From a virus, in the IMG/VR virus record IMGVR_UViG_3300027759_000195, positions 1 to 38,585 of that record: a stretch of 38,585 nt of DNA, one strand, 5' to 3'. The notes beneath the pieces were generated by a model that had not been told where the DNA came from, made no database searches, and saw only the letters and a list, made by a program, of their open reading frames with translations. This document shows, in pieces, positions 5,816 through 38,585 of this stretch (positions within the stretch are counted from its first letter, which is position 1; each line of letters opens with the position of its first letter). Both the position numbers and the translations under genes were made by a program.

Positions 5816-7224
5816 TGTTAACCCTAGACGAACTTCACCCTTATCAACAAAAGGCCGTTAACTTCCAGTCAACCCGTGCAAACTCGATGCTTTGGCTCGA
5901 TATGGGTCTTGGTAAGACAATCGTCACCCTGACAACTATTCATCACCTGTTAAATACGAAGTTCCTAAGAGGTGTCATCATCGTGGCACCAAAAAAGGTT
6001 TGTCAGCTTGTATGGAGGCAAGAGGCTTCTAAGTGGGTACACACCACCGGCATTACATTCAGCATGGTCACTGGTACCCCTGACCAACGAGCAAGAGCTT
6101 TAATGAGACAAGCTGATGTCCATCTTGTTAATTACGAAAATTTGAAATGGTTATGTGAGACCCTTCACACTTACTACATTAAAAAAGGTAAAGCTTTCCC
6201 ATTTAACGGCATTGTTTGGGATGAGGTAAGTAAAATGAAAAACTCAGAAACCAAACGTGTACGTAGTGTTATGAAAGTCCTTGATAATTTCGACTGGACA
6301 ACAGGTCTTACTGGAACCCCTGCTTCTAATGGGTATAAGGACCTCCATGGTCAGTACCTTGTGGTAGACAAAGGTCAGCGACTAGGAACCAGCAAGACAG
6401 TGTTTCAAGGGCGGTTTTATTACAAAGTGCCAGACACTCACGTCGTTAAGGCGTTTGACAACTCGGAAGAGATGATTAAGGGGCTGATAGGTGATATTAC
6501 ACTTGAGATGTCGGCGGAAGACTACAACCCACTCCCGGATCTGATCGTCAACGATGTTGTGGTTGAGATGAGTCCAGAGCTCCGAAGTAAATATGATCAA
6601 TTAGAGAGAGATTTCTTCTTCCAACTCGATAGTGGGGTAGATATAGAGGTGTTCAATAAGGTTGCTCTTATGAACAAGTGCCTCCAGTTCAGCAATGGGG
6701 CTGTGTACCCAATAGCGGGGATGCCGTTATGGGAAGAAGTCCATGACCTTAAGTTAGACGCACTGGAAGACATAATCGAGGAGGCCAACGGAAACCAGAT
6801 TCTCTGCGCGTATCAATTCCGGTCCGATGGTGACCGCCTAATGAAGAAGTTCAAGAGTATGCGACCTGTTAATTTGACCGAGTGCAAGTCCGACAAATCG
6901 CTTAATGACGCCATGAGTAGATGGGCGTCCGGGGATTGCCAGTTAATGATCGGTCACCCAGCATCCATGAGTCACGGCATTGACGGTCTTCAAAAGAACG
7001 GTCATATCCTCGTATGGTACGGTCTCACTTGGTCTCTGGATTACTATAAGCAGTTCAACTCCCGGCTAAGGAGGCAAGGTCAAGGTGTCCCTATCCTATG
7101 TCACAGAATAATGGTAAAGGACACCCTGGATCAGGCTCAAGGTGTCCGACTAAACGATAAGGATGTAACCGAGACCGCGTTGAGAAAAGCGATCAAAGAG
7201 TATCGGATTCTAAAGGGAACCTAA
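5815..7224 (+). CDS. SNF2-type DEAD/H helicase
   Basis: A 469-residue superfamily 2 ATPase. Motif I is DMGLGKT at 29-35, motif II is VWDEVSK near 136 (DEVS in place of DEAH), motif III is TGTPASNG near 167, and motif VI is QFNSRLRRQGQ near 405. The Q-like start is LHPYQQKAV. Length fits phage SNF2 helicases that accompany VRR-NUC genes. It is the last gene of the rightward replication block, and its 3' end overlaps the 3' end of the leftward gene at 7210 by 15 bp. Likely role: translocation on DNA and remodelling of replication forks. Confidence 0.92.
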   Translation: MLTLDELHPYQQKAVNFQSTRANSMLWLDMGLGKTIVTLTTIHHLLNTKFLRGVIIVAPKKVCQLVWRQEASKWVHTTGITFSMVTGTPDQRARALMRQADVHLVNYENLKWLCETLHTYYIKKGKAFPFNGIVWDEVSKMKNSETKRVRSVMKVLDNFDWTTGLTGTPASNGYKDLHGQYLVVDKGQRLGTSKTVFQGRFYYKVPDTHVVKAFDNSEEMIKGLIGDITLEMSAEDYNPLPDLIVNDVVVEMSPELRSKYDQLERDFFFQLDSGVDIEVFNKVALMNKCLQFSNGAVYPIAGMPLWEEVHDLKLDALEDIIEEANGNQILCAYQFRSDGDRLMKKFKSMRPVNLTECKSDKSLNDAMSRWASGDCQLMIGHPASMSHGIDGLQKNGHILVWYGLTWSLDYYKQFNSRLRRQGQGVPILCHRIMVKDTLDQAQGVRLNDKDVTETALRKAIKEYRILKGT

Positions 7225-7572
7225 TTGTCCTTTCAACGCTGTGTATTGTGTCTGAATTAATTCCTTGAGTTGATCATCTGAGATAATGAAATTAGGGGTG
7301 GCGTCTTGAACTGCTTTAATAACGGCATCGAGACGTTCGTTCCCAGTGGCGTCAGGTAATCGCTTTGCAGCATATCGAATAGCATGCTTGACGATCTTGC
7401 GGAGATTGGGGTCATCAATTGAAGTAACTTGAGAGTTTACTTCCAGGAACAATGATTCGCGGAGTCTACCCACTTCCTTTTTAATCAACGAATAAAAAGC
7501 AGCACCCATTGCAATAGTGATACCCCATTCGAGTAGGGGTTTGACCGGGTTAACGATGTCTAAAATGTTCAT
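7210..7572 (-). CDS. Probable holin-like membrane protein
   Basis: A 120-residue protein. The start at 7572 is chosen for its ggagg and its ATGA overlap with the lysozyme stop. Residues about 11-32 (LLEWGITIAMGAAFYSLIKK) form one membrane span near the N-terminus. A long helical soluble region follows. One-span proteins of this size next to an endolysin match several holin families (for example the LL-H type), though I cannot assign the family. It is last in the late operon. An alternative is a virion-associated membrane protein. Confidence 0.6.
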   Translation of the reverse strand: MNILDIVNPVKPLLEWGITIAMGAAFYSLIKKEVGRLRESLFLEVNSQVTSIDDPNLRKIVKHAIRYAAKRLPDATGNERLDAVIKAVQDATPNFIISDDQLKELIQTQYTALKGQLGSL

Positions 7573-12480: not shown

Positions 12481-14595
12481 TTACACCTCGTTGATACCTA
12501 CAACCCAGTTTGAATAAGTGTCTACAGTTGCCGTCCAATTCGAATTATCACCAGATGATATAAAAACCCTGATGTCAACATTTGTCAACTTGTATATATT
12601 TGAAAAAATAGCGCGGGTTGCATTATATAAGATATTAACATCAGTTCCTGTAGTTACCTGAGCAGATGGGTTTCTTGGATAAAGATACTTAAAGCTAATC
12701 GTGTTTGATAATGTGTAACTAGTTCCACTAGTTGCGGTAATAGCTATTCTTCCGGTTTGACTTTGCAGTCGATGAGGCGCATTTGTATAAGCCCCTCCCT
12801 GAGCGTTATGAAAAAGCGTGCCACTAGGGAAACCTGAAATATTATCTATAATTATGAAATCACAACTTGCCGTTCCCGAATCGAGACGCGTTCTTAATAC
12901 GGCCCCTACATTATCAATATCTGCAGAAAGTCCTGTGATTTTTATGTTAACGGGAACTGTGCACCCCGCATTTCGATATTTCATAACATCCGACCCACTA
13001 GACTGATTGATTGCCTTAATATGACAATCATTGATAAGAAATGTACATTTCTTATCAGTGGCGGCACTAACCGCAGTTGAATTACCACCTACATCAATGA
13101 TCCCACGACTTGATGATGAGGTATCTACATTTGTAAACAGATTACACCCATTTAACTCGAAATAACCGCCTTTGATTTCTGACGAATATATTACTGTTCC
13201 TGATGATGAGTTAGTTATGTAACAATTATCATAACTCACATCCATCCCACCAAAAGCAGCCCCGTTATATATTGCGCAATCTTGATAATGCACGTCTTGA
13301 GAGTTTCCATGAATATCAGCAGAAGAAACCCCAGAAGATTTATCATTCTTTAATATGGAATTCTCATTCCTAATATTTCTATTAGGAACTCCAGCAGTCA
13401 CGTCCCCTCCTCCAATAGCAATAGCATGACGCCGAGCATATGAATTTAACTGAGTGTTAATTACATCTTGACAATTTGATACAACAAGACCGTAATCATC
13501 TGATGTTATCCCTTTATTGTATACATTTAGATTTGATGTTCTAACCTGGTAACATCTGTCGAACACCACTCCCGAGTATGATGTAGACTGGATTGTAACA
13601 TTATCAAATATGGGGTTTGCACAGAATGACACATTAACCATGGCATTTGTACTTCCATTCCCTCCTATTATTTTCAAATTACTAACTCTAACAGGAGCAG
13701 ATGTTAACTTATACACATTCACTGTAGCAGGGTTGTAGGTGTCATATAACGGACTTGTTGTTAAACATGTGTTTCCCGATACCCCAAGGCACTCGCACCA
13801 TTCCCCCTTCCGATAATAAGATCTAGCAGAACTCCATGAGTAATCTGTGGGGTCATAAACACACAAAATATCCCGTGTTGATAACGATGGTGTTGATGCA
13901 AACACAATGCTGTTATTTCCAATAGTGGCAGATGAAATGTCTTCAATTTGGGCAAGTGATCCACTGATTGAAATCATTGTCCCGGCAGAAGCAGATGTAA
14001 AATCAAGAATCGTAGAGTCCCCGTCGCCTTCCATAATTAGGCTTGAGGTTGTAGAAATTGGGGAGGTGAGTGAATAGGTTCCTGCAGGAATCTTTAAGGT
14101 GTACCCGTTGGTACTGGCATAGGCGATGGCGTTTGCAAATGCTCCGTTATTAACCGATGCACTGCCTCCATTTACTGCCCCAAAATCTAAAACGTTTACA
14201 ACTTGCCTCATTTTAGATTGAGCTGTCTGAGCAACTGCTCCAGATCCGTTTTGTACAAATCCTACTAGTGAACTTCCTGTTGAGTTAGATAAGTTTAATG
14301 TACTAACTGCTCCTGTTATGTCATCCCATGTTTTGATTAGCACCCCTGTCGAGGTGGTCAACTCAAATTTGTAGTTTACATTGTACGTCAGCCATATCTG
14401 ATACGGAACACGGCCACCTGAATCAAGGATTATAGGATTGGAGTTTTGGACATTCCCCGCAGACGTCGTATAAGTCACAGCGGGGGTCGTGGATCCGGCA
14501 AGGTATGTGTATAACTTACCTCCCGATAATGGAACACCTGAATCAGTAAAAAACTGAAACCCAGCTCCGGCTAATAATGAGTAAGATACTGTCAT
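12481..14595 (-). CDS. Tailspike with beta-helix (pectate lyase-like) domain
   Basis: A 704-residue protein. The first ~110 residues (LLAGAGFQFFTDSGVPLSGG ... DSGGRVPYQIWLT) form the head-binding-type domain found in phage tailspikes. Then VNVLDFGAVNGG...IPAGTYSLTSPI, near residue 133-175, starts the pectate-lyase-3 / parallel beta-helix region, with many short Asn/Ser-rich strands up to about residue 560. A C-terminal beta-rich part probably mediates trimer formation. Such spikes bind and often cleave surface polysaccharide; the specific glycan and catalytic residues cannot be read. Confidence 0.85.
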   Translation of the reverse strand: MTVSYSLLAGAGFQFFTDSGVPLSGGKLYTYLAGSTTPAVTYTTSAGNVQNSNPIILDSGGRVPYQIWLTYNVNYKFELTTSTGVLIKTWDDITGAVSTLNLSNSTGSSLVGFVQNGSGAVAQTAQSKMRQVVNVLDFGAVNGGSASVNNGAFANAIAYASTNGYTLKIPAGTYSLTSPISTTSSLIMEGDGDSTILDFTSASAGTMISISGSLAQIEDISSATIGNNSIVFASTPSLSTRDILCVYDPTDYSWSSARSYYRKGEWCECLGVSGNTCLTTSPLYDTYNPATVNVYKLTSAPVRVSNLKIIGGNGSTNAMVNVSFCANPIFDNVTIQSTSYSGVVFDRCYQVRTSNLNVYNKGITSDDYGLVVSNCQDVINTQLNSYARRHAIAIGGGDVTAGVPNRNIRNENSILKNDKSSGVSSADIHGNSQDVHYQDCAIYNGAAFGGMDVSYDNCYITNSSSGTVIYSSEIKGGYFELNGCNLFTNVDTSSSSRGIIDVGGNSTAVSAATDKKCTFLINDCHIKAINQSSGSDVMKYRNAGCTVPVNIKITGLSADIDNVGAVLRTRLDSGTASCDFIIIDNISGFPSGTLFHNAQGGAYTNAPHRLQSQTGRIAITATSGTSYTLSNTISFKYLYPRNPSAQVTTGTDVNILYNATRAIFSNIYKLTNVDIRVFISSGDNSNWTATVDTYSNWVVGINEV

Positions 14596-26710: not shown

Positions 26711-28249
26711 CTACGCACCCATCCATGAAGTGGCAACCCCTCCCGATCGTGAACCGGTCGATATTCGACGCACGGGGTCACTTTTTTCTTTTTTGACCCC
26801 AGAGTAAACGGAGATCATTAATGTGAGCCACACTGCATCAGCTCCATCTGTGGATGCAATCCCTCTCATCTTCATTTCTTTTTTACTCTCTATCATTAAA
26901 GCCCCTTTGTTGTTTGATTTCCGTTTTGGGCTAATCATATCGAGTCTCATCTTTTTGTCATCGGGAAGGTGAGCCGTTCGAATATATGCTTTACCTTCCG
27001 CCCACATCTCAGCTCTTTTATTACCCCAAGCTACAGGGTTCTTAGACGCCCAGGACGAGTTAATTGATGTTATTTTATACCGGAGTCTCTTCAAGCTTCC
27101 GAATATACCCCAACCCAAACCACCTTCATCAATTACAATATAATCAGGCTGATATTCTTCTATGTCATTAAGCAACTTATTAAGAAGCTCATCAGGGTCA
27201 TCTTCTTTATGGTACTTAATGGTTAAGATGTCGCGACCTTGTCGAACGGCAATTGAACATGGGTCTGGGTTCCCTTTACCGGGATCAATCCCCATTACTT
27301 TTGGTTCATGATAATCATTATACCGTTCTCGTTTTATTGCATCATTAACCATTGTCGCAGAGATGTACTGTCCATCCCCACTGCTTGGGAACTCCCCATA
27401 CACCTCCACCCGAGCTTCGTACGAATCTTCTCCGTGTTCTGCAATGATCTGGTTGTATATCGACTTGTCAGTATCTTCAACTGTACGGGCATCGATTTGA
27501 TCATTAACCCAAAATGCCTGTTTTGCGTTGAAACACTCATAAAAATACCCTTGGTTTCTACGAGGGTTGGAGAATGCCAACCAATATCGATCTGTGATGT
27601 TCTCAGTAAAGAACCCTGATGCTACACTCCAGATCCCATCCGCAATCCCAGACGCTTCGTCAAATATGACCATCATACCGTCATAGTTATGTACCCCCGC
27701 GTATGAATCAGGACTCTCTTCGCTCCACAATTTCCCCTCTGCGGCCCAGTATCGTGTCCCTTTCTTCAGGTCCCTCTCCACCAGTGTCGTTAACCACGAT
27801 GCTGGCACTAGCTTGGTAGCGGATGGTTCCCACCAGTGGCAGTTAATCGACATGATGCACCACTTGGTCAACTCACCCCATGTGACTGATCGTAACTGGT
27901 TCTCGCTGTTGGCACTCACAATTACCGTGGACCCAATTCGAGTGGTCAACATCCAAAGTATTAACCATGCTACCAAGGCTGACTTACCGATCCCCCGACC
28001 CGATGCAATGGCTGATCTAAGCGCCGCCATGTCAACTTTACCCTTGTTGTCTTTTATGTGCTGGGTGATTCTTCTTAAAACCTTCCGCTGCCACTTACGA
28101 GGTCCTGTAAAGTTGGCGAGTGGGGTATTCGCTTTACCCCAAGGGAACACGTACATTACAAACGCTTCCAAATCATCGGCTATACGAGGAGACCATAGGT
28201 GACTCATTAATAACTGTTCGTCCTCAGACGAGTGAATAGGTTTCTGCAT
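26711..28249 (-). CDS. terL: Terminase large subunit
   Basis: A 512-residue packaging ATPase/nuclease. Walker A is SGRGIGKSAL (84-92). Walker B is MMVIFDEAS near 190. The C-terminal nuclease has its first acidic site in VMGIDPGKGNPDPC near 315, then YIVIDEGGLGWG near 370. The start is at a TGATG overlap with terS and behind ggagg. It drives DNA into the procapsid and cuts concatemers. Confidence 0.95.
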   Translation of the reverse strand: MQKPIHSSEDEQLLMSHLWSPRIADDLEAFVMYVFPWGKANTPLANFTGPRKWQRKVLRRITQHIKDNKGKVDMAALRSAIASGRGIGKSALVAWLILWMLTTRIGSTVIVSANSENQLRSVTWGELTKWCIMSINCHWWEPSATKLVPASWLTTLVERDLKKGTRYWAAEGKLWSEESPDSYAGVHNYDGMMVIFDEASGIADGIWSVASGFFTENITDRYWLAFSNPRRNQGYFYECFNAKQAFWVNDQIDARTVEDTDKSIYNQIIAEHGEDSYEARVEVYGEFPSSGDGQYISATMVNDAIKRERYNDYHEPKVMGIDPGKGNPDPCSIAVRQGRDILTIKYHKEDDPDELLNKLLNDIEEYQPDYIVIDEGGLGWGIFGSLKRLRYKITSINSSWASKNPVAWGNKRAEMWAEGKAYIRTAHLPDDKKMRLDMISPKRKSNNKGALMIESKKEMKMRGIASTDGADAVWLTLMISVYSGVKKEKSDPVRRISTGSRSGGVATSWMGA

Positions 28250-28824
28250 CAGTCCTCCACCTCTCGATATTCAGCATCTACAACTAACCGCGTCGCGGCT
28301 TCTTCAAGGGCCTTGGTGATACTGATCGCACCCGAGTGCTCAATTTGTTTAATCTCCCCAAACCGTTTTTTGTTCCAAACACCAAGAAGGTATTTTAACG
28401 TGTTTATTTTAAGAGTGGATCTCTGGACGTCTTCGAAACTGTCCGAGCCCTCGGCAATACCGGGCAACTTGGAGGCTATGATCTCACAACCCAACTCAAG
28501 CGCTTCATAATACTTCTCTTTACGAATTGGATCTTTAAGTATCCATCTTAGAAACCGCGCTCTGTCAAACTCACGGACGTCATCTTTTAAAATGTTACCA
28601 AGCGTTTCACCGCAAGAAAGCTTATCCAAAACGGTGTCTAGAATTATCTCGTACTGCATGACGATGAGTTCCTTTACGTCATTACGGACAAATCGGTCGT
28701 CTTTACCAATAAGCCACTTTGGCAATGGTGAAGACATTATAGTTTGGGAAGTTGGGTCTTGTTGGAATTGGGAGTCTTGGGGGGATGCGTTAATCGCGCC
28801 TAGAGTCCCTGAAGTGTTACTCAT
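28249..28824 (-). CDS. terS: Terminase small subunit
   Basis: A 191-residue protein directly before terL. A Gln/Ser-rich start is followed by a helical DNA-binding region (FVRNDVKELIVMQYEIILDT, GNILKDDVREFDRARFLRWI) and the YEALELGCEIIASKLPGIAE stretch common to small terminases. It recognises the packaging site and loads TerL. No clear ribosome-binding site precedes ATG 28824. Confidence 0.8.
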   Translation of the reverse strand: MSNTSGTLGAINASPQDSQFQQDPTSQTIMSSPLPKWLIGKDDRFVRNDVKELIVMQYEIILDTVLDKLSCGETLGNILKDDVREFDRARFLRWILKDPIRKEKYYEALELGCEIIASKLPGIAEGSDSFEDVQRSTLKINTLKYLLGVWNKKRFGEIKQIEHSGAISITKALEEAATRLVVDAEYREVED

Positions 28825-28830
28825 AGTAAG

Positions 28831-29387
<557 letters not shown>

Positions 29388-29531
29388 TTAACACTGTCTC
29401 TCGGAGTACGTGTACAGTGGGTCAGCGACTCGATTGAATCCCGCAACCAACGTCTTAACGGTATCTCGGTCCAACCATCTAACAACCCAACGTGATTCCG
29501 AGTTTTCCCAGACACCGTAGTTACCACTCAT
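29388..29531 (-). CDS. 47-residue protein expressed from the operator region
   Basis: ATG at 29531 follows a strong gggagg with good spacing and opens a 47-codon frame: MSGNYGVWENSESRWVVRWL and then DRDTVKTLVAGFNRVADPLY. Upstream lies a promoter with an operator-like palindrome (29567-29595). The strong initiation site and promoter make it convincing despite its length. It runs leftward ahead of the late genes; a small regulator or host-takeover peptide is possible, unproven. The operator-like site 29412-29424 lies inside the gene. Confidence 0.65.
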   Translation of the reverse strand: MSGNYGVWENSESRWVVRWLDRDTVKTLVAGFNRVADPLYTYSERQC

Positions 29532-29545
29532 AAAGATTCCTCCCT

Positions 29546-29596
29546 TTTAACATTCTAACCCACTGTACTATATACCCAATGGGTTAGAATGTTAAA
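29546..29596. repeat. 17-bp perfect inverted repeat around the leftward promoter
   Basis: Arms 29546-29562 and 29580-29596 are exact reverse complements (core ttaacattctaaccca), separated by 17 bp. The element covers both hexamers of the leftward promoter. Confidence 0.9.
29567..29595 (-). promoter_or_regulatory. Leftward sigma70-like promoter with operator in spacer
   Basis: On the minus strand TTAACA, 17 bp, TATAGT (five of six matches each). The spacer contains the palindrome ACCCATTGGGT (29574-29584). It would transcribe the 47-codon gene at 29388-29531. Confidence 0.6.
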
Positions 29597-29822
29597 CATT
29601 GTTAATTTAACCCATTGTACTACGTTAACCCATTGTACCATGGGACAGTGGGTAGTTTTGACCCATTGTACCACTTAAAACCCGTTGGGTAGGTGGTACA
29701 ATGGGTCATCTGTGAAACCCTCCGTGAAACATTGAAAAAGTGTGTACAGTGGGTCAGAAATAGCCCAGGGGGTCAGCATTTTGGTGGTACATTGGGTTTT
29801 CTGACCCACTGTACGATAAGTC

Positions 29823-29931
29823 AGCGACAAAAATAATACAGGGGGATACAGGAAATCCTTAATATATTGAAATATTTCCCTGAATCCCATTTTCCGATAT
29901 TCCTATACCCGTTTCAAGTATTTTTGTCGCT
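29823..29931. repeat. Nested inverted repeat with AT-rich centre, possible origin element
   Basis: Outer arms AGCGACAAAAATA (29823-29835) and TATTTTTGTCGCT (29919-29931) are exact reverse complements over 13 bp. Inside, ggatacaggaaat and atttccctgaatcc are imperfect complements around an AT-rich core. Operator-like sites flank it on both sides (29804 and 29940). Confidence 0.75.
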
Positions 29932-30007
29932 ACCACATCACCCACTGTACACAACAGAATCCCTCAACCCATTGTATCGCCCCCATCACAATAGTCAAAA
30001 ATAACCC

Positions 30008-30036
30008 TTGACCCAATGGGTTATCCGTGATACAAT
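30008..30036 (+). promoter_or_regulatory. Rightward sigma70-like promoter with operator overlapping the -35
   Basis: TTGACC, 17 bp, TACAAT (five of six matches each). The palindrome ACCCAATGGGT (30011-30021) covers the end of the -35 and the first part of the spacer, so a bound regulator would block RNA polymerase. It reads into the accessory operon starting at 30089. Confidence 0.7.
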
Positions 30037-30088: not shown

Positions 30089-30229
30089 ATGGTATTATTC
30101 GAAATAATCAACCGTCACGGTGAAGTCATCGACATTTGTGACGACCCCACCGACGCACTGGAGTATATCTCAGAGCTTTCCACAATAACCGGGTACACCT
30201 ACACCGTCCGGGAGGTGTTTGGAGAATGA
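30089..30229 (+). CDS. 46-residue first protein of the accessory operon
   Basis: ATG at 30089 follows gaggag and lies about 50 bp downstream of the promoter. It reads MVLFEIINRHGEVIDICDDP and then TDALEYISELSTITGYTYTV, a short beta-hairpin-helix pattern. Stop and next start overlap (ATGA). Unknown function; as the promoter-proximal gene it is probably well expressed. Confidence 0.7.
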   Translation: MVLFEIINRHGEVIDICDDPTDALEYISELSTITGYTYTVREVFGE

Positions 30230-31452: not shown

Positions 31453-31625
31453 CCCGCCCCCTATTCGCCCTTATATCCCTTCTTCTATTCCTCGTAGCCG
31501 CTCATACCACGTCACTCGTAAATGACGACTACGCGTACAGATGGGGGGCTAGTATCGTGCTTGTGGTATTGGCTTTGAGTTTCGCGATTAATGCGATAAT
31601 AACAAATGATCAAGGAGACAATTAA
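31449..31625 (+). CDS. Second two-span small membrane protein
   Basis: A 58-residue protein with spans at about 4-19 (PLFALISLLLFLVAAH) and 33-51 (GASIVLVVLALSFAINAI). The topology is the same as the protein at 30226. The 3' end reads into the ribosome-binding site of the Cys-triplet gene. Confidence 0.65.
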   Translation: MTRPLFALISLLLFLVAAHTTSLVNDDYAYRWGASIVLVVLALSFAINAIITNDQGDN

Positions 31626-31626
31626 A

Positions 31627-32376
31627 ATGAAAACCGAGATATTTAGTAGTTACGACGAATTTTTGAACAGACCCGACAAACAAACAAACGGTGTGTCCGT
31701 TGGGTTTTCAAAAAAGTACCCGGGTTTTACTTTGGATAACGAGACAAATTCAGGTTGTTGGGATTGCAGCGATTGCAGCGATTGCCGCGATTGCCGCGAT
31801 TGCCGCGATTGTTGGGATTGCTACGATTGCAGCGATTGTTGGGATTGCAACGGTTGCAGCGGTTGCGGCGGTTGCGGCGATTGCTACGATTGCCGCGGTT
31901 GCCGCGATTGCCGCGGTTGCAGCGATTGCCGCGATTGCCGCGGTTGCCGCGATTGCCACGGTTGCGGCGGTTGCGGCGATTGTTGGGAGTGCTACGATTG
32001 CCGCGGTTGCAACGGTTGCCGCGATTGCCGCGATTGCCGCGATTGCCGCGGTCAATCAAACGAGCCACTTGTTATCCCAAAAATTGAAAATATTCATCAG
32101 AAATTATTAGAAGCTTGCAGTGGCGATAATTCGCTTGATATGTCCAATTGGCACACGTGCGACACAACACACTGCCGGGCTGGCTGGATAGTAACGCTGG
32201 CCGGAGAGGATGGTAAGAAATTAGAGGGTCATCTAGGTACTCCGTTAGCGGCCAATAAAATATATAAAGCAAGCTCAGATATAAAGGTCGATTGGGCACT
32301 AAGATTTTACGAGTCAGACGATGTTGCTATGGCTGACATAAAGCGTTGCGCGGAATTAGAAAAAGAAGGTAATTAA
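31627..32376 (+). CDS. Cys-triplet repeat protein (33 consecutive C-x-D/G units) with conserved C-terminal domain
   Basis: A 249-residue protein, start chosen behind aaggagacaattaaaATG. Residues 44-142 are 33 consecutive triplets with Cys at every third position and Asp or Gly at the third place (CWD, CSD, CRD, CYD, CGG, CWE and so on). The array is followed by a separate domain from about 152, including MSNWHTCDTTHCRAGWIVTL and GTPLAANKIY. I know that C-terminal domain from other phage proteins, where repeats precede it. Every-third-residue cysteine would put thiols on one face of a regular helix or solenoid, fit for metal binding or redox, but no structure is known to me. The next genes encode other repeat proteins. 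Confidence 0.75.
   Translation: MKTEIFSSYDEFLNRPDKQTNGVSVGFSKKYPGFTLDNETNSGCWDCSDCSDCRDCRDCRDCWDCYDCSDCWDCNGCSGCGGCGDCYDCRGCRDCRGCSDCRDCRGCRDCHGCGGCGDCWECYDCRGCNGCRDCRDCRDCRGQSNEPLVIPKIENIHQKLLEACSGDNSLDMSNWHTCDTTHCRAGWIVTLAGEDGKKLEGHLGTPLAANKIYKASSDIKVDWALRFYESDDVAMADIKRCAELEKEGN
31756..32052 (+). repeat. 9-bp tandem repeat encoding 33 Cys-x-x triplets
   Basis: Thirty-three in-phase 9-bp units of the type tgc-cgc-gat. All frames of both strands remain largely open through it because of the period. Confidence 0.95.
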
Positions 32377-32377
32377 A

Positions 32378-32896
32378 ATGGCTAACGATAAATACGAATT
32401 AATAGGAGAGCCGAGCATTGACGGACTTCGCCGAATCCGAGCTCTCCGCGATATCGGTAACTCAGTTAAGGCCGGAGACGTAGGCGGGTGGGTTGAGTCG
32501 GATAAAATTTTATCATTTCTCGGCGATGCGTGGATCTCTGGTAATGCGAAGGTCTCTGGTAATGCGAAGGTCTCCGGCAATGCGTGGATCTCTGGTAATG
32601 CGAAGGTCTCTGGTAATGCGAACGTCTCCGGCAATGCGTGGATCTCTGGTGCTGCGAAGGTCTCCGGCGATTCGTGGATCTCCGATAATGCGCATGTCTT
32701 TGGTGATTCGCAAGTCTCCGGTTATGCGCAGGTCTCCGGTACTTCGTGGATCTTCGGTAATGCGATGGTCTCCGATAATGCGCGTATCTACTTTGATGCG
32801 CAAGTTTCCGGTAATGCGGTGGTGACCGGTAATGCGCGTATCTACGGTAATTGGGTGGTGAACGGTAATGCACGTCTCGGAGGAAGTTTAATATGA
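32378..32896 (+). CDS. Left-handed beta-helix (hexapeptide repeat) protein, paralogue 1
   Basis: A 172-residue protein. Residues 1-48 are a non-repeat cap (KYELIGEPSIDGLRRIRALR, DVGGWVES) typical of phage YdcK-like proteins. From about 49 on come hexapeptides of the form NA-x-V-S-G (AWISGNAKVSGNAKVSGNA), some 19 units. This is the LbH pattern of acyltransferases, but no active-site loop or conserved His is seen, so a structural or binding role is more likely. First of three tandem copies; the first 120 bp are identical to copy 2. Confidence 0.82.
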   Translation: MANDKYELIGEPSIDGLRRIRALRDIGNSVKAGDVGGWVESDKILSFLGDAWISGNAKVSGNAKVSGNAWISGNAKVSGNANVSGNAWISGAAKVSGDSWISDNAHVFGDSQVSGYAQVSGTSWIFGNAMVSDNARIYFDAQVSGNAVVTGNARIYGNWVVNGNARLGGSLI

Positions 32897-34366
32897 TCAA
32901 GGAGACAGTTAAAATGGTTAACGATAAATACGAATTAATAGGAGAGCCGAGCATTGACGGACTTCGCCGAATCCGAGCTCTCCGCGATATCGGTAACTCA
33001 GTTAAGGCCGGAGACGTAGGCGGGTGGGTTGAGTCGGAGAAAAATTTATCACATCTCGGCGATTCGTGGATCTCCGGTGATGTGCGTGTCTACGATAATG
33101 TGCGTGTCTACGGTAATGCGTGGATCTCCGGTAATGCGATGCTTTTCGGTAATGCGATGGTTTACGGTGATGCGCAGGTCTCCGGTTATGCGCAGATCTT
33201 TGATGATGTTCAGATCTTTGATGATGCGCATGTCACCGGTAATGCGATTGTCTCCGGTAATGCGACGGTTTTCGGTGATGCGCTGGTTTGCAGTAATGCG
33301 CGTGTCACCGATAATGCGCAGGTCACCGATAATGCGCGTATCTACTTTGATGCGCAAGTTTCCGGTAATGCGCGGGTCTCCGGTTTTGCAAAGGTCGAAG
33401 ATAATGCGACGGTCTCCGGTAATGCGTGGGTCTTTGGTGATGCGCGTGTCTCCGGTTATGCGCGTGTCTCCGGTAATACGCGTGTCTCCGGTAATGCGCA
33501 GGTCTTTGGTGATTCGCAAGTCTCCGGTTATGCGCACGTCTCCGGTAATTCGCAGGTCTTTGGTGATGCGCGTGTCTCCATTTTTGAAGAAGGTTTAATA
33601 TGAGAAGGACAATTAAAATGGCTAACGATAAATACGAATTAATAGGAGATCCAACCATTGACGGAATTCACCGAATCCGAGCTCTCCGCGATATCGGTGA
33701 CTCAGTTAAAGCCGGAGACGTAGGGGGGTGGGTTGAGTCGGATAAAAACTTATCATGCCTCGGCGATGCGTGGATCTCTGGTAATGCGATGGTTTTCGGT
33801 GATTCGGTGGTGAACGGTAATGCACGTGTCTCCGATAGTGCGATGGTCTCCGGTAATGCACGTGTCTCCGGTAATGCGCAGATCGAAGATAGCGCGATGC
33901 TCTCCGGTAATGCGCGGGTCTCCGCTAATGCGCGTGTCACCGGTAATCCGTTTGTCTCCGGTGATTCGTGGATCTTCGATAATGCGACGGTCTCCGGTAA
34001 TGCCCAGGTCTTTGGTGATTCGCAAGTCTCCGGTAATGCGCAGGTCTCCGGTAATGCGCGTGTCACCGGTAATGCGATGGTCTCCGGTAATGCGCGTGTC
34101 ACCGGTAATCCGTTTGTCTCCGGTGATTCGTGGATCTTCGATAATGCGACGGTCTCCGGTAATGCCCAGGTCTTTGGTGATTCGCAAGTCTCCGGTAATG
34201 CCCAGGTCTTTGGTGATTCGCAAGTCTCCGGTAATGCGCAGGTCTCCGGTAATGCGAAGGTTTTCGGTAATGCGATGGTTTTCGGTGATGCGGTGGTGAC
34301 CGGCGATGCGATGGTTTTCGGTGATGCGGTGGTGACCGGCGATGCGGTGGTGACCGGTGATTCAGA
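32520..34366 (+). repeat. 18-bp periodic repeat region of three beta-helix genes
   Basis: Hexapeptide-coding 18-bp units with core ggtctccggtaatgcg run through three genes, interrupted by the caps. Includes 120-bp and 114-bp identical segments between and within genes. Confidence 0.9.
32914..33603 (+). CDS. Left-handed beta-helix protein, paralogue 2
   Basis: A 229-residue protein with the same cap (120 bp identical, 32919-33038 against 32383-32502) and about 29 hexapeptides with more varied positions (VYGNA, IFDDV, VTDNA, VCSNA). The start at 32914 is chosen behind aaggagacagttaaaATG over an ATG 21 bp upstream. It also shares the stretch encoding ARIYFDAQVSGNA with paralogue 1, a sign of exchange between copies. 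Confidence 0.82.
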   Translation: MVNDKYELIGEPSIDGLRRIRALRDIGNSVKAGDVGGWVESEKNLSHLGDSWISGDVRVYDNVRVYGNAWISGNAMLFGNAMVYGDAQVSGYAQIFDDVQIFDDAHVTGNAIVSGNATVFGDALVCSNARVTDNAQVTDNARIYFDAQVSGNARVSGFAKVEDNATVSGNAWVFGDARVSGYARVSGNTRVSGNAQVFGDSQVSGYAHVSGNSQVFGDARVSIFEEGLI

Positions 34367-34376
34367 GGAGGTTTAA
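33618..34376 (+). CDS. Left-handed beta-helix protein, paralogue 3
   Basis: A 252-residue protein with a slightly diverged cap (KYELIGDPTIDGIHRIRALR) and about 33 hexapeptides. It contains a perfect 114-bp direct repeat (33926-34039 and 34088-34201, offset 162 bp, nine hexapeptides). The start at 33618 is behind aaggacaattaaaATG. It is the longest of the three, as if grown by internal duplication. Confidence 0.82.
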   Translation: MANDKYELIGDPTIDGIHRIRALRDIGDSVKAGDVGGWVESDKNLSCLGDAWISGNAMVFGDSVVNGNARVSDSAMVSGNARVSGNAQIEDSAMLSGNARVSANARVTGNPFVSGDSWIFDNATVSGNAQVFGDSQVSGNAQVSGNARVTGNAMVSGNARVTGNPFVSGDSWIFDNATVSGNAQVFGDSQVSGNAQVFGDSQVSGNAQVSGNAKVFGNAMVFGDAVVTGDAMVFGDAVVTGDAVVTGDSEEV

Positions 34377-35350: not shown

Positions 35351-35569
35351 ATGACAATCAGTAACGACTTCATAATCGAATTAAAGAAAAAGGGATTCAC
35401 CCGAGACCGCATCGCCCGACTTCTCGGCGTCTCAGTATTCCTCGTTCAAAAGTGGGACAATGGTCAACGAAAGATCAGCCCCAGTGTCTCCCAGTTGATC
35501 ACCGTGTTAAAACTCGTTCAGCTTATGGCACCCCCTGTGTATGAGTCCGTTTTAAAAGAGTCCATTTAA
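35351..35569 (+). CDS. HTH DNA-binding regulator, Cro/CI-like
   Basis: A 72-residue protein behind a ttgagg site. Residues 15-40 (FTRDRIARLLGVSVFLVQKW) form a helix-turn-helix with recognition helix VSVFLVQKW, followed by DNGQRKISPSVSQLITVL, the dimer helix of Cro/CI-type regulators. It is the last gene of the accessory operon, whose promoter carries ACCCAATGGGT, so autoregulation through that operator is the simplest hypothesis. Confidence 0.75.
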   Translation: MTISNDFIIELKKKGFTRDRIARLLGVSVFLVQKWDNGQRKISPSVSQLITVLKLVQLMAPPVYESVLKESI

Positions 35570-35607: not shown

Positions 35608-38040
35608 TTATTCGTTATTACCATTCACCAATAGACGTTTCCATCCCCGGGACTCTCGGATCTGATCCACCCGTCGTTGCTTCGCCTCTATAATCGCCCT
35701 TCGGTTGTCTTTAAACTGAGTTAGAATCGAGGGGTTGATGGCCCATACGGCAATGTGTTGGTTTTCCCGTGCGCCATCATCTATCCGACTAACCCACTCC
35801 GCTTTCTCAAGTATTGCCATTCCTCCATACACGACCTGATCAGCTTTCCACACGTTCAAATCCTCCAAGCGTCGGCGTGCGCTGGCCTTTATTTCGTGAA
35901 GTGTGATCTTCTCAAGGTTTGAATTTTGAACAATATAATCGATCAACCACGAATCGAACGAAGATATATTCGACAGTTCGGACAATGCGTACCGGAGGGA
36001 CGGGATTATGTACGTTTTGATTAATCGGATTACCCGGAACACCACTGACTCGGAGACCTCTGTACAAAACGGAGACTCGATTGCATGGAACAGTAAAATT
36101 AGTCGGCCACAGGTTCCTTCTATTTTACCAAACGCGGTCATGAACACGTCAGATGCCGATAGTAACCGCTCGTCCCGCTTGGCCTCCTCGTACCATGTCT
36201 GGAAATTCCGAAATAGGGTGTAGGCATCACTTGATAACTTGTAAACAATTGGTGGAAGCGATTGAGTAGTTCGTAATAGTGACTCCCACTGCTTCGCCGA
36301 GGTCATGAACTCAGACAAAGGTTCGCCGCGCTTGGTATAACCCTCCCTCAAAACAGCAGGAATGAACCGTTGAAGAAGCCCATCAGACGATAGTGAATTA
36401 AGAACTTCTTGAAACACCTTCGGTTGAATATTTCCGTAAATACTAACAGCCAAGTTCTCACAATGAATCGATCCTGCCCCCACTCGGTCCATGTCGTAAG
36501 CCTTCCCCTCATAACTGACCACCCATGTAGAGCGGTCCTCCCCAGACGAACGTTCGCATAATTTCCTAACCCATGACGACATTTCGTCGAGAGTGCATAG
36601 AAGACCCCGAGGTCTCTCAGCACAATGACGAACCAATTTCTGACTCGTGATATCAGTGACTGTTATCTTCAGTGGGACAGGTTGCGAAGGGAGGTCTGGT
36701 ACTGTTGGTATCGCATTCGATCCCATCATCGCCTCAGGACTCGCAGAAAACTCCAAGAAACTCTTTTTCGCGGCAGCGTATGCCGCTTCGTGACCCTCCC
36801 AAACCAACAATTCCTTTTTGAACCGCGGTCTATCCTCCAGTTCTAATTGTACAAGGGGGTCCAGCATCGGTGCCGCCCCAGGGGTCTTTTTATCGGCAGG
36901 GTCGCCAATAGTCATAAGCCAAAGAATCGGGGGCACTTTGAACCCCGGCATTAACTCCAATCGAATCCGGGAATCAATTACACCACAGACCGACCCAAGA
37001 CCGGCCCATAATGGCACAAGGGGGTCACAGCCTACAGCTTCTGATATTTCTTTAGCTCTCTTTTGTAAAATGGTGGGCCAGAGCGATAAATCCATCTCAG
37101 GTGGCAGCGGTCTAATCCCTTCATGGATTTCAAGTGGTGGGGTTAATGACCCAACATTTTTAAAAAGAGTTGAGGTGTCGTCGGGCTTCCGAACCCACCC
37201 GTGCTCAGACGCAATTCGAAATAGTGTGCCCAATGTTATGGGTGCTCCTCTATCGGTCTTAAAACTTTTCCATTGACCCACCATTGCAGGTCTTCCTGGG
37301 TATTTTATGCTTGATTTGCTGGACCAGGCGTCCCATTCGCTAAATGCAACGGTGTCACATTTGTTCTGATTACCCCAGTGATGCAGAGCCATGCCTATAT
37401 TGATCCATTCCTCCCTACAAAGGTCGGGAGGTGTTAACAGAAGTGCCTCCCGTATCGTTTGAAGAGACGTCAGGGTTAAAGGGTCGGATACACTCTCGGT
37501 GACCTTCACCTCTATTAATGATTTCCAGTAATCAAGAAGTGAATCAGGAATGACAGGAGGATTCGTGTAGTCGGCAGCCCCTTCCCAACGATAAGGCTGA
37601 CTCGTGTCAGGGTGAATTGACGGCGGTAAGACATCCTGACAAGTGAGTCCGTTAGAAGTGGCACATCGAAATTCCAAAATGGTACCAGTTGGGCCGTTTA
37701 CTCGTTTAGATGGTAAGGTCAATCCACCCGGCATTTTGTACAAGAACTTTGCTCGCCCCGTCCTCCCCGATTCAATTCTTACAGTCTTCGGGTCGTTGTA
37801 GAGGTCAGGTAAAGAGATTCCCTTTTCCCCCAATAAGTCAACAGCAAGATCAGTATCATCAATGTCCAAAGCCATCGTTCCAGAGTACGCGTGCATCAGC
37901 CCCACCCCATGATCAGTAGGAATCATCCAGGCTGCAACAAGAGCGTTTTCAATAGTGTTCCAATTAATGATACGCGGACCTTTTCCTCCGCGTGGTATAG
38001 GTATGATCTTCCAACCGGCGTTTATATAGTCTTGAATCAT
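35608..38040 (-). CDS. Primase-polymerase with DUF3987 helicase-like domain
   Basis: An 810-residue protein. The start at 38040 is chosen for its ggaag at 4 bp over a GTG at 38112. Residues about 1-180 are a bifunctional primase-polymerase domain (PF09250 type) with ALDIDD (D59, D61) as catalytic acids. About 205-300 is a primase C-terminal domain (CREEWINIGMALHHW, GTLFRIASEHGW). About 330-760 is DUF3987. In it, GDPADKKTPG near 380 takes the place of the Walker A and is degenerate, and LLCTLDEMSSW near 483 is the Walker B. It primes replication for the family B polymerase and is transcribed away from the replication operon. Confidence 0.85.
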   Translation of the reverse strand: MIQDYINAGWKIIPIPRGGKGPRIINWNTIENALVAAWMIPTDHGVGLMHAYSGTMALDIDDTDLAVDLLGEKGISLPDLYNDPKTVRIESGRTGRAKFLYKMPGGLTLPSKRVNGPTGTILEFRCATSNGLTCQDVLPPSIHPDTSQPYRWEGAADYTNPPVIPDSLLDYWKSLIEVKVTESVSDPLTLTSLQTIREALLLTPPDLCREEWINIGMALHHWGNQNKCDTVAFSEWDAWSSKSSIKYPGRPAMVGQWKSFKTDRGAPITLGTLFRIASEHGWVRKPDDTSTLFKNVGSLTPPLEIHEGIRPLPPEMDLSLWPTILQKRAKEISEAVGCDPLVPLWAGLGSVCGVIDSRIRLELMPGFKVPPILWLMTIGDPADKKTPGAAPMLDPLVQLELEDRPRFKKELLVWEGHEAAYAAAKKSFLEFSASPEAMMGSNAIPTVPDLPSQPVPLKITVTDITSQKLVRHCAERPRGLLCTLDEMSSWVRKLCERSSGEDRSTWVVSYEGKAYDMDRVGAGSIHCENLAVSIYGNIQPKVFQEVLNSLSSDGLLQRFIPAVLREGYTKRGEPLSEFMTSAKQWESLLRTTQSLPPIVYKLSSDAYTLFRNFQTWYEEAKRDERLLSASDVFMTAFGKIEGTCGRLILLFHAIESPFCTEVSESVVFRVIRLIKTYIIPSLRYALSELSNISSFDSWLIDYIVQNSNLEKITLHEIKASARRRLEDLNVWKADQVVYGGMAILEKAEWVSRIDDGARENQHIAVWAINPSILTQFKDNRRAIIEAKQRRVDQIRESRGWKRLLVNGNNE

Positions 38041-38073
38041 GAAGCTTCCATTCGTTATTTTGTAAAGCAGGCG

Positions 38074-38103
38074 TTGACAACTGTACAGCACTGGGTTTAC
38101 AAT
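38074..38103 (+). promoter_or_regulatory. Rightward promoter of the replication operon
   Basis: TTGACA (perfect), 18 bp, TACAAT (five of six). Transcription would start near 38110, leaving a leader of about 100 nt before the small protein at 38214. The spacer contains a composite operator-like site GTACAGcacTGGGT (38083-38096). Confidence 0.6.
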
Positions 38104-38108
38104 TGCAA
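38080..38108 (-). promoter_or_regulatory. Candidate leftward promoter for the primase gene
   Basis: On the minus strand TTGCAA, 17 bp, TACAGT (four of six each), about 40 bp before ATG 38040. It overlaps the rightward promoter and an operator-like composite site. Confidence 0.4.
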
Positions 38109-38171
38109 TCACCTGTTGAACGGAGACAATCGTTATGATTGGTTTTGACAGGTTGGGTGTCAGGTCTGATG

Positions 38172-38213: not shown

Positions 38214-38405
38214 ATGAATAGAAGTTTAAACGTATCAATGGGGGTAAGGGTCCCAAAGATACTGTATGAGAAATTCTCGAAGAAGGCCAAACTACACGGC
38301 GGTTCTTCAGAACTGCTGCGTGAAATGATGGAAGCATTTGTAAGTGATCGATTAAAAATAACTCAAGACCCAGAAAAGGAAAAGCTATATGTCTCTGGAA
38401 AGTAA
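38214..38405 (+). CDS. Small ribbon-helix-helix-like protein
   Basis: A 63-residue protein; the start is behind gaaaggag rather than upstream alternatives. MNRSLNVSMGVRVPKILYEK gives a short strand and first helix, and GSSELLREMMEAFVSDRLK the second. This is the size and order of Arc/MetJ-type (RHH) regulators, which bind DNA as dimers, although a match is not certain. First gene of the replication operon, divergent from primase, and a candidate autoregulator. Its end overlaps the VAAP protein start. Confidence 0.6.
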   Translation: MNRSLNVSMGVRVPKILYEKFSKKAKLHGGSSELLREMMEAFVSDRLKITQDPEKEKLYVSGK

Positions 38406-38585
38406 CATTGCAGATCTAGCCAAAGCAGTTGAGGGATTGTCTCAAGCATTGAAGCTCACACTGGCAGCACCAGTCGCAGCACCAGTCGCAGCACCAGTCG
38501 CAGCACCAGTCGCAGCACCAGTCGCAGCACCAGTCGCAGCACCAGTCGCAGCACCAGTCGCAGCACCAGTCCCAGCACCAGTCGC
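38389..38585 (+). CDS. VAAP-repeat protein, N-terminal part (runs off window end, continues at 2-304)
   Basis: The ATG lies inside the 3' end of the preceding gene (stop 38403-38405). About 28 residues of a helical, amphipathic N-terminus are followed by nine four-residue VAAP units; the last unit is VPAP. The frame stays open to the window end and joins in frame, across the junction, to the repeat at position 2. N-terminal helices followed by an Ala/Pro linker and a small C-terminal domain are seen in some phage early proteins. I do not recognise a named family. The Ala-Pro repeat should be an extended, flexible linker. Repeat number is uncertain because the sequence was broken inside it. 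Confidence 0.75.
   Translation, partial: MSLESNIADLAKAVEGLSQALKLTLAAPVAAPVAAPVAAPVAAPVAAPVAAPVAAPVAAPVPAPV
38464..38585 (+). repeat. 12-bp tandem repeat (right copy of junction minisatellite)
   Basis: About ten units of the same 12-bp repeat found at 1-99, with one variant near 38572 (gca to cca, Ala to Pro). Joining end to start keeps the frame but leaves a 6-bp short unit, as expected from an assembly broken in a repeat. Confidence 0.95.

Follow-up and report, generated by a model that had tools for sequence, protein, structure and literature searches.

A conserved site array between the early and late genes of a freshwater phage group, probably read by an MqsA-like protein and surrounding a candidate replication origin

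A dense cluster of short sites, repeated in both orientations between divergently transcribed genes of a phage, raises the question of whether such a locus controls transcription, replication, or both. The cluster considered here lies in a virus record of 38,585 bp (G000; "the window" refers to this whole record). The preliminary description had proposed either a regulator array or a replication origin between divergent units; the evidence presented below suggests both at once, with putative operators placed at the early promoter and the array centre occupied by a conserved stem-loop. We consider it probable that the locus is an early/late control array that is read by a small MqsA-like helix-turn-helix (HTH) protein and is arranged around a candidate origin stem-loop. 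The window phage is a P22/Sf6-like podovirus, and its portal shares 72% identity with that of Phage DSL-LC05, which was assembled from a freshwater lake and belongs to the proposed family 'Luchaoviridae' (PMC10611076). PMC10611076 does not use the terms iteron, repressor, operator or origin of replication, and a literature search did not find a description of the phage array. The array is placed between the small terminase gene and an early plus-strand operon:

28249-28824, minus strand: small terminase (terS, Sf6 type), the first late gene beyond the array
29412-30021, no strand assigned: whole array, with nine exact sites, three one-mismatch sites and three palindromes
30089-30229, plus strand: first early gene after the operator promoter, 46 aa, at which the early operon starts

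A motif scan identified nine exact copies of ACCCAYTGTAC (29412-, 29558+, 29610+, 29628+, 29661+, 29696-, 29744-, 29804+ and 29940+, the signs denoting orientation), three one-mismatch copies (29643-, 29787- and 29967+) and three palindromes (ACCCAATGGGT at 29574 and 30011; ACCCGTTGGGT at 29680). The resulting total of 15 sites in both orientations over 610 bp bears out the earlier estimate of about 14 copies, including its two ACCCAATGGGT palindromes and one ACCCGTTGGGT palindrome. A scan of the whole 38,585-bp record found no exact copy outside 29412-29950 and no match to a reversed control pattern, and mononucleotide shuffles yielded a mean of 0.025 and a maximum of one exact site, versus the nine observed; the sites are thus not equally common elsewhere in the genome, a possibility that the preliminary description had left to a whole-genome scan. 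Spacing within the array is irregular, and neighbouring sites often pair into longer inverted repeats (29546-29596, 29659-29708 and 29744-29814). The elements outside the array centre and the early promoter are as follows:

29091-29174, plus strand: 28-bp direct repeat in three copies, with the site variant ACCCATGGGG / TGACCCATGGGG
29558-29596, minus strand: long inverted repeat (the repeat spans 29546-29596) with promoter-like TTAACA-17-TATAGT (29595-29567)
29659-29708, plus strand: 50-bp near-palindrome, with sites 29661+ and 29696- around the palindrome ACCCGTTGGGT at 29680-29690
29675-29702, plus strand: promoter-like TTAAAA-16-TACAAT, inside the 50-bp near-palindrome
29744-29814, no strand assigned: inverted pair of ACCCACTGTAC sites with 17-nt perfect arms and site ACCCAATGTAC (29787-29797) between them
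29940-29977, plus strand: site pair flanking the stem-loop on its early side, the one at 29940-29950 exact and the one at 29967-29977 with one mismatch

The variants carried by the 28-bp repeat are probably additional sites of lower strength towards the late genes. This repeat does not feature in the preliminary description, and neither do the central inverted repeat and the early promoter-like sequence described below. Just upstream of terS, at 28869-28914, lies a long (TG)n microsatellite.

Conservation of the array was assessed in phages that share the replication protein of the window phage. A homologue search with the PrimPol-PriCT_2-DUF3987 protein (35608-38112), using an alignment of the window and DSL-LC05 proteins, recovered homologues that were 54-60% identical and defined 79 other IMG/VR phage loci, besides a near-identical copy. 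In all 50 of these loci that reach terS, and likewise in the window, ACCC(A/G)nTGGGT palindromes are clustered directly before this gene; with the window included, at least three sites were present in 51/51 and at least five in 49/51 of the PrimPol-group loci reaching terS. In a comparison of 44 arrays, the density of sites with 9 or more of 10 positions matching was 4.64/kb in the region and 0.107/kb elsewhere, a 43-fold difference, and none of nine scrambled half-sites showed such enrichment in the array region of these arrays. The site of the group can be written as (A/G)ACCCAnTGGGT(C/T), a palindrome of 11-15 bp. Most group phages carry palindromes and the window phage carries asymmetric sites; ACCCAYTGTAC is most simply read as a derived form of the family palindrome in which one half has been altered. 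The earlier statement that no named family has this site consequently needs qualification, as the palindromic parent is common to dozens of uncultivated phages, including DSL-LC05, and its geometry matches that of the MqsA operator (PMC4894380). A direct search of the collection with two exact sites was dropped, as beyond near-identical copies (L017 and L021) it returned only collagen-like coding repeats, microsatellites and coding sequence.

Terminase and portal relatives with other replication genes carry different array motifs at the same locus, including GTTTACRTAAAC in MW202483, TGCTACAA in Rhodoferax phage P26218, GTGAGTACTCAC in ctfPj964 and either TTGTCCACA or TGACCCAAA in VapE-type contigs. 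An array before terS is therefore, as judged from these genomes, a recurrent layout in which the motif changes between lineages with different replication modules. Neither the HTH protein nor the Arc-like ribbon-helix-helix (RHH) protein discussed below was found in the terminase relatives with other motifs, and arrays were not evident in the more distant P22-like phages PAE2, X14, VvAW1 and 1.211.A. A host-oriC-like reading fails for the PrimPol group because DnaA boxes (TTATCCACA, with at most one mismatch) are not enriched in its arrays; the VapE-type relatives do carry arrays of TTGTCCACA, which resembles the DnaA box of high-GC bacteria. Six VapE-type terminase relatives (L026, L032, L033, L035, L061 and L075) have two arrays, 0.3-1.4 kb upstream of terL, one consisting of TTGTCCACA/TGACCCAC(A) and the other of GTTAGT-n4-ACTAAC palindromes nearer terS, and in L029 and L062 TGACCCAAA occurs in 9-bp tandem pairs. 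In MW202483 (L002), an annotated DnaA helix-turn-helix protein (7083-7379) occupies the place of the PrimPol-group HTH gene, alongside the GTTTACRTAAAC array.

Several sites overlap promoter-like sequences. The elements next to the early operon are:

29967-29998, minus strand: promoter-like TTGACT-16-TACAAT (29998-29971), with its -10 inside site ACCCATTGTAT (29967-29977)
30008-30036, plus strand: early promoter-like TTGACC-17-TACAAT with TG before the -10, 10 of 12 matches
30011-30021, no strand assigned: putative palindromic operator ACCCAATGGGT over the early promoter -35, as in L089, L110 and L131

In the window this -35 overlap reads TTGACCCAATGGGTtatccgtgaTACAAT. The other arrangement at the early end of the array has a palindrome between the -35 and the -10, flush with the -10 (e.g., TTGACAccttgACCCAATGGGTTATAAT in L101), and in at least 20 of 46 arrays a strong early promoter has one palindrome fitting exactly between its -35 and its -10. 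Within the window, the promoter-like TTAACA-17-TATAGT similarly holds the palindrome at 29574-29584 in its spacer, with the site at 29558-29568 over its -10. Across the 46 arrays, 32 of 79 early-strand promoter-like sequences overlapped a site, versus 11.9 expected, with 20 exactly abutting the -10, and late-strand sequences showed no excess (3 of 41, versus 5.9 expected); the loci are related, and these counts are hence not independent. Near terS, a well-conserved palindrome is often found a short distance upstream of a likely late promoter, and activation of the late promoter through this palindrome is a guess. In several loci (L001, L093, L107, L150 and others), the leader downstream of the early promoter repeats CGTAACC just before the ribosome-binding site.

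The same position, immediately upstream of terS in all loci reaching that gene, could also suggest a pac/packaging site that is recognised by the neighbouring small terminase. We regard this as very improbable, as position and phase of the array are tied to the early promoter, and the pac of P22/Sf6-like phages lies in terS itself. An operator array for an MqsA-like repressor that is encoded by the early operon and shuts off early transcription is the likely alternative. A role in lysogeny appears unlikely for such a repressor because no integrase was found in 14 group records, which may themselves be incomplete; a lytic switch fits this absence better than a lysogeny repressor does, and the window phage is probably virulent.

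Three DNA-binding candidates are conserved along with the array:

35351-35569, plus strand: XRE/MqsA-like HTH protein, 72 aa, downstream of the early promoter on the same strand; best candidate reader
35608-38112, minus strand: PrimPol-PriCT_2-DUF3987 primase-helicase with a predicted C-terminal winged helix; candidate origin-acting replication protein
38214-38405, plus strand: Arc-like RHH protein, 64 aa, conserved in the group; alternative reader

Co-occurrence alone cannot single out the reader, as all three co-occur with the array. The HTH gene was present in 71 of the 79 IMG/VR loci as well as in the window and DSL-LC05, on the early strand in all loci, and most loci that lack it end before its position. 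When compared with PDB, the HTH family profile matched chains of MqsA (E 7e-5 to 1.5e-4), among them that of the DNA-complex entry 3o9x, and 17 of 53 family members matched Pfam MqsA_antitoxin; the window protein on its own matched generic HTH models only. Its structure model (pLDDT 89, helices spanning 3-70) had HigA2, Aca2 and P2 C as its closest folds. The palindrome TAACCCAATGGGTTA at 29572-29586 is AACC-N5-GGTT, the same geometry as that of the MqsA operator, AACCT-N3-AGGTT, i.e., AACC-N5-GGTT (PMC4894380).

Two natural experiments, few as these are, bear on the choice of reader. Locus L152 has no ACCCA array, and the recognition helix of its HTH protein reads GVENATYRKW versus the usual GVPVFTLRKW, with the RHH strand unchanged, an ordinary PrimPol winged helix and the stem-loop retained. 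In the window, where the site is altered, the recognition helix (GVSVFLVQKW) is likewise unusual, being the least typical one. These changes alongside changes in the sites are suggestive of a tie between the HTH protein and the array. At 13500-13640, L152 carries an AT-rich loop enclosed by two near-perfect arms, each about 24 bp long (ATGTGACAAATTGACTCCGCGCG and its complementary sequence), with two further single copies of GAGTCAATWTGTCAC towards terS.

We thus favour the 72-aa HTH protein as the likeliest reader on account of its MqsA relationship and the matching operator spacing of TAACCCAATGGGTTA, its location on the early strand downstream of the promoter with the best-placed site, and the suggestive recognition-helix changes in L152 and the window. 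Both it and the RHH-like protein at 38214 had been put forward initially, and the HTH protein emerges as the better candidate and the RHH-like protein as the less likely one. RHH proteins often bind multi-site operators, and this one is conserved in the window, in DSL-LC05 and in 74 of the 79 loci. The presumed recognition strand of this protein (FLTVRV/FLTIRV) is, however, unchanged in L152, where the ACCCA sites are missing, neither an exact site nor a palindrome adjoins its gene in the window, and the geometry of the sites matches an MqsA-type HTH instead; we consider it quite improbable that the RHH protein reads the array.

The centre of the array holds an element of a different type:

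29823-29931, no strand assigned: central stem-loop element (AGCGACAAAAATA...TATTTTTGTCGCT), a site-free inverted repeat and candidate origin core

In the window this element folds with a z of -4.3 (0 of 200 shuffles were as good). In most of 35 loci the array has a site-free gap of approximately 120-180 bp with sites on both sides, and across these 35 loci the arrays contain a stretch that is among the most AT-rich of its locus (60-bp windows; median, 0.35th percentile). An nhmmer profile of the stem-loop matched nearly all of 46 loci (E down to 1e-41), and also its own reverse strand; the window stem-loop, which was placed by position, inverted repeat and gapped alignment, had no match by this profile. 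In 32 sequences including the window, a 21-pair helix with arms GTGACA...TGTCAC, which was set by hand on the same alignment and towards which the test leans, was 77.7% paired versus 41-45% in slid controls, with covariation of 0.296 versus at most 0.138 and 85 two-sided changes versus at most 43. RNAalifold retained 7 pairs only, and single-strand DNA folding reached significance in the window and in DSL-LC05, whereas L150, L116 and L101 fell short of it; some of the stretches from these three began inside the left arm. The covariation of the arms could also reflect paired protein sites changing in concert rather than a stem.

For proteins that combine PrimPol, helicase and winged-helix domains (pRN1, phage BIP-1), a stem-loop of about 100 nt has been proposed as the starting point of replication (PMC4234260), and in PICI origins an AT-rich stretch is flanked by sites on either side (PMC6092414). 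Given this proposal and this flanking-site layout, the stem-loop is the best origin candidate in the locus, and we put the prospects that it is a replication origin for the PrimPol protein at roughly even. The modelled C-terminal part of that protein is winged-helix-like and matches generic winged helices, with no P4 alpha origin-binding domain among the matches listed. The cumulative GC skew has its minimum at 30-31 kb, which agrees with an origin but is confounded by gene orientation and would be expected of a divergent promoter region as well. Because promoters are AT-rich as well, AT-richness by itself was considered weak grounds for assigning an origin.

A further explanation holds that the sites are mainly origin iterons, at which an initiator (the PrimPol winged helix or the HTH protein) would melt the AT-rich stem-loop, with the promoter overlap representing autoregulation as in iteron plasmids. 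The two sets of sites flanking a conserved AT-rich stem-loop in most of the 35 loci, a layout shared with PICI origins (PMC6092414), the proposal of a stem-loop origin in PrimPol replicons (PMC4234260), the GC-skew minimum at the array, and the other motifs in relatives with other primase types, some of them DnaA-box-like (TTGTCCACA), all agree with it. So does the palindromic promoter site of the window, where most other sites are asymmetric. In iteron plasmids, operators are palindromic and iterons asymmetric. We nevertheless consider this explanation unlikely, as the sites are irregularly spaced and in both orientations, their placement is constrained most strongly relative to the early promoter, the array has no initiator gene beside it, and L152 keeps the stem-loop and an ordinary PrimPol winged helix without an ACCCA array.

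Computation establishes the array, its conservation, its overlap with promoters, the conserved covarying stem-loop, the MqsA-type relationship and the geometry of the sites, whereas HTH binding, repression, late activation and origin function are inferred. On the operator reading, the array would be the main control region, with the sites acting as operators for the phage's own MqsA-like HTH protein (35351-35569), itself made from the early operon. As this protein accumulates, it would bind the early-promoter palindrome, block RNA polymerase and shut off the early operon, its own gene included; weaker and asymmetric sites would be occupied later, and sites just upstream of the late (terminase) promoter may aid late-gene activation. 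The stem-loop, flanked on both sides by the array, would serve as the origin for the PrimPol-DUF3987 primase-helicase, and bound HTH protein could also tune replication. Only tentatively do we join these parts into a composite in which the 10-15 operators of one MqsA-like repressor would serve to shut the early promoter while also lying on either side of a PrimPol stem-loop origin, a single small protein might time early shut-off, late switch and replication, and related phages might keep the layout with an unrelated site and protein.

This arrangement shares features with several known systems. The early/late switch of phi29 uses p4 sites between A2c/A2b and A3 (PMC3100819), and both phages have several inverted-repeat sites between divergent early and late promoters, some over early promoter elements; the phi29 sites serve an early phage protein, for which the HTH reader is the candidate here. 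Unlike phi29, which has four longer sites and a non-HTH protein, the window has about 15 short sites with a stem-loop at their centre and an MqsA-like HTH protein. The phage protein resembles MqsA/HigA-type XRE repressors (PMC4894380) in its HTH domain, and the sites share the operator geometry AACC-N5-GGTT, whereas the protein consists of the HTH only (72 aa, without the N-terminal domain of the MqsA antitoxin proper) and would face 10-15 sites rather than the two of MqsA. As in PICI/SaPI origins (PMC6092414), two sets of short sites flank an AT-rich stretch; however, the PICI origin lies immediately 3' of rep, whereas the primase-helicase gene ends 5.6 kb from the array in the window (approximately 1.5-5.8 kb across the group), and the sites described here also overlap a promoter. 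With pRN1 and Bordetella phage BIP-1 (PMC4234260) the group shares a PrimPol(-PriCT_2)-helicase-winged-helix protein, the winged helix being predicted here, and a stem-loop of about 100 nt conserved in structure more than in sequence, but those replicons have their stem-loop after the replication gene and showed no origin iterons, whereas here the stem-loop lies inside a putative operator array. Iteron-plasmid origins differ in their regularly spaced direct repeats, contrasting with the irregular spacing and both orientations seen here. Phage L5 likewise has many short asymmetric sites, its repressor-binding stoperators, but these are scattered over the genome rather than confined to one region.

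These results predict a regulator, its operator, an early promoter and a candidate origin for a large, experimentally untouched freshwater phage group. If true, an MqsA/HigA-type HTH, known mainly from toxin-antitoxin systems, would act as a master lytic switch, and the stem-loop would exemplify a PrimPol stem-loop origin in a virus of bacteria, a possibility that the pRN1 study had left undecided. Variation among members of the group (palindromes, the asymmetric window sites, the L152 helix without an ACCCA array) lends itself to a study of protein-site co-evolution.

Two further observations concern the record itself. The early operon of the window encodes, at 31606-34376, one repeat protein of the DCRDCRDC type and three consecutive YdcK-like beta-solenoid (hexapeptide) repeat proteins, the first of these three having a Pfam match. 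Both record ends (1-100 and 38460-38585) consist of the same 15-bp tandem repeat CAGTCGCAGCACCAG (VAAP codons), at which the contig probably broke; the genome map is probably circular and the record probably complete or nearly so.
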